Virus record (IMG/VR): IMGVR_UViG_3300046012_000620 | Coordinates: 1-29,680 of that record | Reading direction: 5' to 3' (one strand) | Origin: a virus | Length of the DNA: 29,680 bases | Part shown: positions 4,591 through 8,749 of the stretch, piece by piece | Position numbering within the stretch: the first letter of the stretch is position 1 | Layout of the letters: each line of letters opens with the position of its first letter | The notes under the pieces: model-generated | The model's database searches: none | The model's input: the letters and a program-made list of their open reading frames with translations, nothing else | What the model was told of the DNA's origin: nothing | Position numbers and translations under genes: made by a program

Positions 4591-5235
4591 CTATGGTCTT
4601 TTTATGTATATTGTCTTGTATAAACTAACAAGCTCTTTTATAGCTTTCTTATCGTGTGTTTTCATTTCAATTATTCCTAAGCCTTCACTAGATGCATTAG
4701 CAAAAGCTTTTCTACAACCAATCGTTAAATTGAGACATTTTATTTCTTCGCATTCATTAAGAATTTCAATAGAGGCGTCATTATCTACTCCTTTAGAATC
4801 TGCCTGGTTAATAACGCAGTAAGATTTCAATTTAGGATTAGCTATTTTCATCTCCATAATAATGGTTTTAACATCCCCAATAGTCCAAACATCAAATGAT
4901 CTTGGTTTAAAAGGTATAAGATAAATATCCGCAATTGCTAAAGCAGATCTTTGACTTGTAGTATCTCTTCCCCCAACATCAATAATAATGTCATCGTAGT
5001 CATCTTTCATTCTTTGAATTTGAGTATGTAGGGTTTTTCCAAACAATTGAATGGTCGACCATTTTGTTGGTATTCCTAAAACTTCTCTTTGATTTGCCCA
5101 TTGAGATGAAGACTTTTGTTCATCTGCATCAACTAGTAGAACTTTTTTTTTGTCATTACTTCTTAAAACAGCAAAGTTAGTAGCTAAGGTCGTTTTACCA
5201 GATCCACCTTTAACTCCTCCTATAACAATTATCAT
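4591..5235 (-). CDS. parA: ParA-family partition ATPase (ParF-like)
   Basis: The 214-residue product has the deviant Walker A motif KGGSGKTT (residues 9-16), the A' motif LLVDADEQ (D36, D38) and Walker B DDIIIDVGG (D86). Its length matches the short ParF/type Ib ParA proteins, which lack an N-terminal HTH. These ATPases move plasmid or plasmid-prophage DNA to daughter cells. I start at 5235 because GGAGG lies 8 bases upstream of that ATG; an in-frame ATG at 5250 would add five residues but lacks a ribosome binding site. The RHH gene follows on the same strand. Its presence beside packaging genes implies that this phage can be maintained as a low-copy plasmid. Confidence 0.88.
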   Translation of the reverse strand: MIIVIGGVKGGSGKTTLATNFAVLRSNDKKKVLLVDADEQKSSSQWANQREVLGIPTKWSTIQLFGKTLHTQIQRMKDDYDDIIIDVGGRDTTSQRSALAIADIYLIPFKPRSFDVWTIGDVKTIIMEMKIANPKLKSYCVINQADSKGVDNDASIEILNECEEIKCLNLTIGCRKAFANASSEGLGIIEMKTHDKKAIKELVSLYKTIYIKRP

Positions 5236-5332
5236 ACAAAGAACCTCCATTGAATATGCTCAAAGTATACGAAGAATATACATAAACTCAATTAGACTTT
5301 ACAAAAAATGATTTGTTTGTTATCAGACTTAC
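5236..5332. promoter_or_regulatory. Divergent control region between parA and a plus-strand gene
   Basis: This AT-rich 97-base interval separates the minus-strand parA from the plus-strand gene at 5333. It contains GTATA and TATAC as an imperfect inverted repeat with a 7-base spacer (5256-5272), which could be an RHH operator or partition site. Near 5319 a TTATCAGAC element lies just before the plus-strand ATG. Assignment as a partition site is inference from position. Confidence 0.4.
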
Positions 5333-6006: not shown

Positions 6007-6441
6007 ATGCCAGATCAAGAGGTAAAACAATCTCAAAAAATAGATTTAGGCGGAAGACCTGAAAAATATACTAAAGAAGTTATTGATGATTTAGCCGATG
6101 AATTTCTTGAATGGTTGAAAAAACCAAATAATGTTTGGTTCAAAGATTTTTGTTTAGATAAAAATATAGATCCTAGATTAATGACAGATTGGGCTAAAAA
6201 ATCTCACAAGTTTTCCGAAGCTTACATTTTAGCACAGGCTAGACAAGAGTCAAAATTGATGAATGGAGGGCTTTTTAACAAGATGAATGCTGGTATTGTC
6301 AAGTTCGCTTTAGTCAATAATCATGGATACAATGACAAGAAAGAAGTTAATGTTACTTCAAACGGAAATCCTCTTCCAGACTGGGCAAAACAAGCTGAAG
6401 GTCAATCTAAAGATTTAGTGAATGAGCTTATCAAAGAATAA
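6007..6441 (+). CDS. Terminase small subunit
   Basis: The 144-residue product begins with a short polar tail, then 'GGRPEKYTKEVIDDLADEFLEWL' and 'FKDFCLDKNIDPRLMTDWAK', a helix-turn-helix pattern typical of terminase small subunits of the P22/phi29-unrelated podovirus type. This is followed by a helical section (SEAYILAQARQESKLMNGGL) and a C-terminal tail that would contact the large subunit. These proteins recognise the packaging site and regulate the motor. A Shine-Dalgarno sequence (AGAGG) precedes the ATG. The gene overlaps the start of TerL by 20 bases, the usual operon arrangement. Confidence 0.8.
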   Translation: MPDQEVKQSQKIDLGGRPEKYTKEVIDDLADEFLEWLKKPNNVWFKDFCLDKNIDPRLMTDWAKKSHKFSEAYILAQARQESKLMNGGLFNKMNAGIVKFALVNNHGYNDKKEVNVTSNGNPLPDWAKQAEGQSKDLVNELIKE

Positions 6442-8749
6442 TCCTCTGATGGATCCTTATTGGAGGATCAATAACCTTTACCATATAGTTGATAAGCAAG
6501 GTCGAAAGATCATTTTCAAGCTTAACTGGGCTCAACAAGAACTTTATGAGAACGTCTGGTATTGCAATGTTATTCTTAAGGCTAGGCAGTTAGGTATATC
6601 CACATATATTTGCTTACTTTTCTTAGATAGATGTCTATTTAATTCAAATGTTTCAGCTGGGATTATTGCTCATACTGTAGAAGATGCTCAGGCTTTATTT
6701 AGACGTGTTAAGATTGCTTATGACAGTCTCCCTGATCAATTGAAAGACATAATTACGGCTGAAAATGATACCGCTCAAATGCTCAAATTTTCTAATGGTT
6801 CATCAATCCGTGTGGGTACATCATTACGCTCTTCTACATTTCAATACCTTCACATCTCAGAGTTTGGAAAGATTTGCGCAAAATACCCAGATAAGGCAAC
6901 CGAGATTATCACCGGCTCTCTCAATACCGTTGCTCCCGGTCAATATGTTTTTATTGAATCTACTGCTGAGGGTAGAGATGGATATTTCTATGATATTTGT
7001 AAAAGAGCGCAAAACGATAAAAATACTAAACGGGATCTTTCAAAGTTAGACTTCAGATTTCATTTCTTTCCATGGTATAACGAACCATCTTATAGAATTG
7101 GGTCAGTTTTTCCGGTTACAGATGAAATGCAACAATATTTTGATCACCTTTTTGCTTTAGGTATTAAATTAGATGAAGAACAGAAGAATTGGTACATAGC
7201 TAGAGAACAGACACAGAAAGAAGATATGAGGAGAGAATACCCATCTACTCCAGAAGAATCCTGGGAAGTGTCTAATGAGGGTCTTTATTATGGTAAGTAC
7301 ATGACTCTAGTTAGGTCGGAGAAACGTATAGGTAACATACCCTACAACGAATCACTTTTGGTCCATACTGCATGGGACATTGGCTACAATGATTCGAATA
7401 GCATTTGGTTTTTCCAAATATCAGGTAAAGAAATCTGGCTGATCGATTATGAAGAAGGTAGTGGGGAATCTTTATCTTATTGGATCAATGTTCTTAAGAA
7501 GAAAGACTACACTTATGGAAAACACATTGCTCCACATGATGTTATGGTCCATGAATATAGTTCTGGAATGACACGCCAAGCTTCTGCTAGGAAACTGGGA
7601 ATTAACTTTATACCTACTCAAAAAGTTGAGATCATTCCAGGCATAGATCAAGTCAGAAGTATTCTGAATCGCTGTTGGTTTGATGAAAGAAAATGTGCTA
7701 AAGGGATCAAAGCTTTAGATGCCTATAAGAAGGACTGGGATGAACGTCATGCATGTTGGAGATCTTCTCCCTTACATAATTGGGCCTCGCATGGATGTTT
7801 CACAGGTGAAACTTTGATATTGACGCGTACCGGAATGCGTCCCATAATGTTAATAGAAAAAGATGAAGAAGTTTTAACATTATTAGGCTGGATAAAATGC
7901 AACAAAGCGACATTAACGAAACGAAATGCAACTCTTGTGGCTGTTCAATTCCAAGACAATACAAAGGTAAGATGTACTCTGGATCATTTATTCTTGACGG
8001 AGAGCGGGTGGATATCTGCAAAAAACCTAGAGAAGGATATGAAGATCCAATTATCCTCGATATACTTACAACATATTTCAGGGGGCATTTATACAGAGTC
8101 TGGCCTCAACAAAGATATTTCACGAAAGGCGATTCCTACCTTCATAGAGATGTTTGGTCAGATGCTTTTGGTGAAATCCCTAAGGGATGTCATATACACC
8201 ACAAAGACAATGATATCAAAAATAATAGACTTTATAATCTTGAATGCTTGCCAGCCAAAATTCATCTTAGTTACAAACAGCCTAATTCCAAAGGATTATC
8301 AGATAAAGCTAGACAAAGAGCAACTGAATGGCACCAATCAGATGAGGGTAGAGAATGGCATCGAAGAAAAGCAATTAGCGAGAAAAACTGGAAGAAATGG
8401 AAAAGAGAAAAAAGACAATGTGTTCACTGCAATAAGGAATTTGATTGTCTCATTAGGAAAAATGGAGCATCTCAAAAATATTGCACAGCAAATTGTAAAT
8501 CAGCCAATCGTAGAGTCCGTGCAATTTCTAAATGAAAAAGAGGATGTATATTGTATAAATGTTCCAGACATTTCCCATTTTTCATTATCAAATGGAGCGA
8601 TAGTGCATAATTCAGATGCTTTTCGAACCCTTGCAACAGGTTTAAGTTTTGTAGAAAATCAACATTCTTTATCCGCAGCAGTTCAAGAAACTCAAAGGCA
8701 AAGAGATTACATTCAATCCAGATTTAATCCTCAAGCACGCAGTTTTTAG
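6422..8749 (+). CDS. terL: Terminase large subunit, intein-containing
   Basis: The 775-codon frame encodes a phage packaging ATPase/nuclease interrupted by an intein. ATPase motifs: deviant Walker A KARQLGIST (53-61), Walker B YLHISEFG with E147, and coupling motif ESTAEG (179-184). RNase-H-like nuclease motifs: AWDIGYND with D319, HIAPHD with D373, and, after the intein, SDAFR with D732. Residues 459-730 are the intein; removing it joins ...WASHG to SDAFRTL and leaves a 503-residue protein, the usual TerL length. The intein lies exactly at the third nuclease motif, a typical insertion point because precise splicing is needed for activity. It overlaps TerS. A second in-frame ATG at 6449 could be the true start, since neither has a clear Shine-Dalgarno sequence. 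Confidence 0.92.
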   Translation: MSLSKNNPLMDPYWRINNLYHIVDKQGRKIIFKLNWAQQELYENVWYCNVILKARQLGISTYICLLFLDRCLFNSNVSAGIIAHTVEDAQALFRRVKIAYDSLPDQLKDIITAENDTAQMLKFSNGSSIRVGTSLRSSTFQYLHISEFGKICAKYPDKATEIITGSLNTVAPGQYVFIESTAEGRDGYFYDICKRAQNDKNTKRDLSKLDFRFHFFPWYNEPSYRIGSVFPVTDEMQQYFDHLFALGIKLDEEQKNWYIAREQTQKEDMRREYPSTPEESWEVSNEGLYYGKYMTLVRSEKRIGNIPYNESLLVHTAWDIGYNDSNSIWFFQISGKEIWLIDYEEGSGESLSYWINVLKKKDYTYGKHIAPHDVMVHEYSSGMTRQASARKLGINFIPTQKVEIIPGIDQVRSILNRCWFDERKCAKGIKALDAYKKDWDERHACWRSSPLHNWASHGCFTGETLILTRTGMRPIMLIEKDEEVLTLLGWIKCNKATLTKRNATLVAVQFQDNTKVRCTLDHLFLTESGWISAKNLEKDMKIQLSSIYLQHISGGIYTESGLNKDISRKAIPTFIEMFGQMLLVKSLRDVIYTTKTMISKIIDFIILNACQPKFILVTNSLIPKDYQIKLDKEQLNGTNQMRVENGIEEKQLARKTGRNGKEKKDNVFTAIRNLIVSLGKMEHLKNIAQQIVNQPIVESVQFLNEKEDVYCINVPDISHFSLSNGAIVHNSDAFRTLATGLSFVENQHSLSAAVQETQRQRDYIQSRFNPQARSF
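7796..8611 (+). mobile_element. Intein (Hint domain) within TerL
   Basis: The 272-codon insert starts with Cys459 in block A (CFTGETLILT). It has a block B RCTLDHLFLT (517-526, H522) followed by GWISAKNLEKDMKI, and ends in blocks F/G (EDVYCINVPDISHFSLSNG...IVHN, 707-730). The terminal His-Asn and the following Ser731 complete a class 1 splicing set: Cys1, block B His, penultimate His, Asn and Ser+1. No LAGLIDADG motifs are present in this frame. The roughly 150 codons between the block B region and block F look low in information and coincide with an HNH endonuclease read in another frame. All splicing residues are present, so the intein is probably active. Confidence 0.9.
7972..8535 (+). CDS. 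HNH homing endonuclease, out of frame inside the TerL intein
   Basis: This frame is shifted relative to terL and lies wholly within the intein. The 187-residue product has the region YFRGHLYRVW...LHRDVW, the HNH core (H76, H77, D79, N85, N89: HHKDNDIKNNRLYNL), and a C-terminal zinc finger with C150, C153, C171 and C175. These are features of phage HNH homing endonucleases with a C-terminal Cys4 finger. I choose 7972 because AAAGG sits 4 bases upstream; an ATG at 7897 would extend it by 25 residues. It ends at its own TGA, so it is read as a free protein and not as part of the intein. It would mobilise the intein by cutting intein-less terL genes. Confidence 0.85.
   Translation: MYSGSFILDGERVDICKKPREGYEDPIILDILTTYFRGHLYRVWPQQRYFTKGDSYLHRDVWSDAFGEIPKGCHIHHKDNDIKNNRLYNLECLPAKIHLSYKQPNSKGLSDKARQRATEWHQSDEGREWHRRKAISEKNWKKWKREKRQCVHCNKEFDCLIRKNGASQKYCTANCKSANRRVRAISK

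Follow-up and report, generated by a model that had tools for sequence, protein, structure and literature searches.

A putative homing endonuclease gene nested out of frame within the intein of a phage terminase large subunit

The terminase intein and its second reading frame

We analysed a stretch of viral DNA of 29,680 nucleotides (IMG/VR record IMGVR_UViG_3300046012_000620), referred to as the window, in which the gene of the terminase large subunit (TerL) is an open reading frame without a stop codon along its whole length (6422-8749). It lies directly downstream of the terminase small subunit gene (TerS) and is followed by a portal gene; the window also holds a gene for a ParA/AAA_31-like ATPase on the opposite strand (4591-5250, minus). 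TerL contains an intein, and the intein contains a second gene in another frame, as laid out in the following features:

6007..6441, plus strand: terminase small subunit gene, given as context (Pfam GP3_package, 1.7e-12)
6422..7795, plus strand: TerL N-extein with the ATPase and most of the nuclease domain (PHROG TerL matches)
7796..8611, plus strand: intein of 272 aa, inserted between HNWASHG and SDAFR (Pfam Intein_splicing, 4e-12; empty sites; HINT fold)
7796..8059, plus strand: N-terminal splicing half, residues 1-88, blocks A and B (AlphaFold2 pLDDT mostly >90; T61xxH64 conserved)
7820..7848, plus strand: promoter-like block TTGACG-N17-CATAAT, which precedes the HNH start and lies within codons of the intein (position common to 32 of the 33 members of group A, defined below)
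7897..8535, plus strand: gene of a putative HNH homing endonuclease of 212 aa, with ATG 7897 as the favoured start and the stop at 8533-8535 (-1 frame relative to TerL; Pfam HNH_3, 2.6e-13)
7972..7974, plus strand: alternative internal start ATG with AAAGG before it (sequence)
8063..8491, plus strand: TerL-frame linker, residues 90-232, predicted disordered (pLDDT 31-39; substitutions track the HNH frame)
8137..8265, plus strand: HNH_3 catalytic domain, HNH-frame residues 81-123 (Pfam HNH_3; invariant residues)
8419..8496, plus strand: C-terminal Cys4 zinc finger of the HNH protein (C175, C178, C196 and C200, numbered from the 7897 start; conserved)
8492..8611, plus strand: C-terminal splicing half, residues 233-272, blocks F and G, ending V-H-N (pLDDT about 90; V270-H271-N272 conserved)
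8612..8749, plus strand: TerL C-extein, beginning S-D-A-F-R (sequence; empty-site comparison)

The intein extends from Cys1 (7796-7798) to Asn272 (8609-8611) and is followed by Ser +1 (8612), and all of its splicing residues are found: C1, T61xxH64, H271-N272 and S+1. Together with the Intein_splicing match, these residues bear out a preliminary description of the locus, which had recognized a TerL intein with complete splicing blocks at both ends. We infer that the intein splices itself out of TerL.

In the AlphaFold2 model of the TerL-frame intein, residues 1-88 and 233-272 form a HINT fold that is broken by about 143 disordered residues corresponding to the HNH-coding stretch, and the PDB matches of the model are mini-inteins (TM up to 0.84 by target). 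The canonical in-frame endonuclease domain is absent from this intein, the HNH sitting in the -1 frame. That the intein's own frame carries no endonuclease, as had been described, agrees with a HNH_3 match in the other frame and with the disorder modelled for the middle of the TerL frame. Judged by its substitutions, the linker (8063..8491) is, in the TerL frame, a passive read-through of the HNH gene.

The second frame (-1) is free of stops from 7867 to 8532, which amounts to 222 codons, and its protein matches the PHROG HNH endonucleases (2.8e-22). Within the HNH domain H99, H101, H102, N114 and H123 are invariant. AlphaFold2 predicts a confident fold for this frame (mean pLDDT 88.7), of which the best structural match in the PDB is weak (I-HmuI, PDB 1u3e, E 0.06); a sequence search of the PDB with the HNH protein gave no useful match. 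The HNH domain (HNH_3, 2.6e-13), the Cys4 finger and the separate stop that had been assigned to an ORF at 7972-8535 are thus retained, while the start at 7972 probably gives way to an upstream one, given that a CxxC in the HNH frame is conserved before it. The partial overlap of block B with the HNH N-terminus, also pointed out at that stage, is seen in the comparative data.

Recurrence of the nested layout and its probable relation to homing

Related loci were collected by profile scans of viral and bacterial collections, each scan contributing its best 80 loci by similarity to the query, which biases the set; the matches listed comprise 277 loci, equal to 214 non-redundant HNH genes. An out-of-frame HNH flanked by intact intein halves is the arrangement in 172 of these 214 listed relatives; the HNH uses the -1 frame in 155 of them and the +1 frame in 17, and it is in frame with the intein in none of the 214. 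The rest of the 214 listed divide into 19 with the intein halves in different ORFs, 19 without a detectable intein and 4 at contig edges. Counted by sequence, the nested layout occurs in about 170 distinct viral and prophage sequences among the matches listed. A search of viral contigs with the HNH protein returned eight relatives, all eight with intein and HNH in different frames, and phage records added four nested cases and, in Lactobacillus phage CL2, a split one; they also contain free-standing homologues close to terminase genes.

The nested loci range from 27 to 71% in G+C, and the dominant families among 60 scanned N-exteins are terminase large subunits. Public annotation of the nested locus gives only TerL in Acinetobacter phage Highwayman, Tetrasphaera phage TJE1 and a Rhodobacteraceae phage. 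Since the layout recurs in independent contigs and in deposited phage genomes, a sequencing indel is excluded. The preliminary description had proposed a search for TerL inteins of equal layout, which the 172 nested cases among the 214 listed relatives answer, and had named as contrary evidence a frame-restoring indel or homologues with an in-frame HNH, neither of which was found among these listed homologues.

The TerL genes of L002 and L003 are free of the intein, are 78-79% identical to the window's N-extein, and contain a clean empty site (HNWASHG directly followed by ADAFR), with Ala at position +1 where the window has Ser. For loci whose exteins can be aligned, mean identity is 50% in the HNH against 35% in the exteins, and HNH identity is still about 50% in some pairs of loci whose exteins have no detectable similarity. 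Mini-inteins without any HNH are found at the same TerL site in L280 (ctRVW222) and L281 (Mic1).

Further arrangements were observed among the relatives. L279 (Brochothrix phage BL3, 1936-2604) has a split TerL with the same site and only the C-terminal zinc-finger remnant of the HNH, in another frame. In L016 (Lactobacillus phage CL2, 506-2771), L103, L109, L110 and L185, the TerL-IntN frame stops, the HNH gene comes next, and IntC with the TerL C-terminus lies in another ORF; these loci resemble split TerL inteins whose halves are separated by the endonuclease gene. Among L055, L266, L205, L217 and L071, some TerL ORFs contain, further upstream, another N-terminal block of intein type, which suggests a second intein in some of them. 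In group A, the 33 closest relatives that form the window's own clade, the TerL motif is HDW-x-SH-x-ADAFR and the insertion point shifts by a few codons between relatives.

A matrix of the homing site was built from the C-extein codons D-A-x-R-Y (GAYGCNNTNMGNTAY). Of 139 loci outside group A, 76 have a match to this matrix upstream of the HNH core; the control rates are 1% for the HNH body, 10% for the N-extein and 12% for the minus strand. A stricter pattern of the mimic is present in 66 loci outside group A compared with 2.6 expected from codon shuffles. The mimics fall in different frames relative to the HNH, and therefore the constraint acts on the DNA. A mimic also lies upstream of the HNH in the free-standing relatives L019, L021 and L023. 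Within the window's clade, the matrix finds no mimic in any of the 33 loci, and a separate count of matches gives 12.55 per 20 against 12.57 in controls. Based on the insertion site and on the mimics of other clades, the homing target would lie near the D-A-x-R-Y codons; the empty sites, the conservation of the HNH and the remnant and mini-intein stages are consistent with a homing cycle.

The HNH could instead be a packaging accessory nuclease that works with the terminase, as proposed for HK97 gp74, an HNH protein acting with terminase (PMC10448857), and the free-standing HNH homologues do adjoin terL. We consider this role improbable, since the intein-free close relatives have an empty site without HNH, and since the presumably spliced element that contains the HNH occupies one and the same site in TerLs that are unrelated. 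The homing-site mimics upstream of the HNH start in other clades, together with the remnant and mini-intein stages, also argue against a packaging role.

Initiation of the HNH gene and selection on both frames

The 33 members of group A share, almost without exception, a CxxC in the HNH frame just ahead of ATG 7972, and a start codon stands 10, 13 or 15 codons before it in all 33; in the window this codon is ATG 7897. The conserved upstream CxxC and the start codon shared by all close relatives make 7897 more likely than 7972, and the HNH start is probably ATG 7897. A start at 7972 alone is disfavoured by the same CxxC. Ribosome-binding sites are weak at both candidate starts.

At the same place of the intein, upstream of this start, 32 of the 33 group A members have TTGAC-17-xATAAT-like boxes that score above synonymous recodings (mean z 1.75), and codon-level conservation at synonymous sites reaches a mean z of 19 at the block, vs 0.04 in the extein control. 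The window's single match, taken alone, is not above chance. From this conservation the block would be an embedded promoter of the HNH gene, although it could instead reflect another function at the DNA level. Sigma-70-like sites are not enriched in the other clades (mean z 0.22). Within the spacer of the block (7826-7842), the codons CGT and GGA are about as conserved as the boxes, and a further DNA element may thus lie there.

Another route to the HNH protein would be -1 ribosomal frameshifting during TerL translation, which would yield a TerL-IntN-HNH fusion rather than a protein with its own start. The -1 frame does hold 155 of the 172 nested cases among the 214 listed relatives, and the window has an in-phase A_AAA_AAC heptamer near 8020. 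However, in-phase slippery heptamers occur in 19 of 76 loci where 22 are expected, showing no enrichment, and 17 loci use the +1 register; the conserved positions of the start codons and the promoter-like block upstream of them also speak for separate initiation. We regard frameshifting as very unlikely, and programmed -1 frameshifting was rejected on the heptamer counts.

Selection on the two proteins can be followed through codon positions. In close pairs of the window's clade, differences are most frequent at intein codon position 3 within the splicing halves (0.41 and 0.49 vs 0.12-0.16), while over the HNH domain they peak at intein position 2, which is HNH position 3 (0.46 vs 0.15 and 0.21). 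In the +1 clade the peak over the HNH domain is found, as predicted, at intein position 1, again HNH position 3 (0.41 vs 0.19 and 0.12), and in the flanks it is back at intein position 3. The wobble thus shifts to the HNH frame over the HNH domain, and does so differently in the +1 clade, therefore both proteins are under selection; a check for dual-frame constraint had been recommended in the preliminary description, and the switch of the substitution peak exactly over the HNH domain provides it. In intein codons 45-75, where both coding functions overlap, there is little or no excess at position 3, and codons 60-75 are slow at all three positions; by this substitution pattern, codons 60-75 are truly dual coding.

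The TerL frame is open in 173 of 184 loci, compared with 11.2 expected under synonymous shuffles of the HNH codons, and on these counts its openness is itself selected. For the window alone, the same shuffles predict 1.8 stops in the TerL frame (P about 0.09), which is weak evidence. The original argument that the openness of both frames is telling thus stands for the family and is weak for the window's locus by itself. The reading of the second frame as a fossil or artefact of assembly, to which the modest odds of dual openness at one locus (P about 0.09) lend something, has a negligible probability and is contradicted by the recurrence in independent contigs and deposited phage genomes and by purifying selection on the HNH frame.

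Interpretation and relation to known systems

The locus is, very probably, a mobile intein of TerL that contains, nested out of frame, a separate and independently expressed gene for its homing endonuclease, and the comparative data support the initial interpretation of an HNH with its own start and stop inside a complete intein. Ribosomes reading TerL would cross the whole element and produce a TerL in which a disordered loop of about 143 residues separates the two HINT halves of the intein; by excising itself, the intein would restore TerL. Translation of the HNH protein would begin separately, at a start codon of its own in the -1 frame, and its gene would probably also be transcribed from a promoter embedded in the N-terminal coding sequence of the intein. 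The HNH protein would cut intein-free terL near the conserved DAxRY codons, and repair off the intein-bearing copy would spread the whole element.

In inteins, the endonuclease is understood as a domain of the same polypeptide. The dCTP deaminase of cyanophage CL131 contains such an intein, with HintN and HNH_3 and the endonuclease in frame (PMC6293099); it resembles the window in having splicing blocks and an HNH_3 endonuclease inside a phage gene, but there the HNH is part of the intein polypeptide, whereas the window's HNH is a separate gene in another frame. The ShiLan domain, on the other hand, is an out-of-frame HNH inside a phage methylase gene that has no splicing domain, and for which neither intein or intron splicing nor a ribosome-binding site was found (PMC11855218, 2025). 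In both cases a zinc-finger HNH occupies another frame of a host gene whose own reading frame is uninterrupted, but only the window has a complete splicing domain. The ShiLan HNH was rejected as a close relative (weak similarity, 26 bits), and no convincing intein halves were found in the ShiLan gene.

The open-access literature that was searched yielded no account of a complete intein with an endonuclease gene in another frame. The earlier statement that no example is established therefore holds, within that literature, for a complete intein, and needs qualifying because ShiLan is an out-of-frame HNH in a phage gene and thus a partial precedent without a splicing domain. I-HmuI, the best though weak structural match, is a phage HNH homing endonuclease, but it is intron-encoded and its overall similarity to the window's HNH is low. 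Split inteins with a free-standing endonuclease gene between their halves are known as 'fractured genes'. They share with the window an endonuclease encoded apart from the halves, and the relatives L016, L103, L109 and L110 look like them; in the window, by contrast, the TerL frame is continuous and the endonuclease gene overlaps TerL.

The genes of T4 I-TevI, I-TevII and I-TevIII lie within a splicing element and have their own promoter with a homing-site-like operator upstream (PMC2988022). The likeness consists in a separate gene within a splicing element, with an upstream mimic in the other clades of this family and a candidate promoter in the window's clade, and the difference in the carrier, which in T4 is a group I intron removed by RNA splicing. 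Because the carrier is here an intein and not a group I intron, the HNH gene must coexist with a second coding frame. The resemblance to intron-encoded endonucleases proposed at the outset holds, as a promoter-like block (window's clade) or homing-site mimics (others) lie upstream of the HNH start. We lean slightly towards a widespread class of phage inteins, with an autonomous out-of-frame endonuclease gene in the -1 or +1 register and an embedded promoter or mimic operator, which would be a hybrid between an intein and intron-style autoregulation.

The nested HNH gene is missed by standard annotation. As the endonuclease is a separate overlapping gene, its expression can be uncoupled from host-protein expression and from splicing. 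The system suits the study of relations between intein states, because one TerL site and its immediate neighbourhood show inteins in the free-standing, nested, split and endonuclease-free states, and its recurrence, the exact frame switch of selection and the candidate control elements embedded in it make it a natural system for the evolution of overlapping genes.
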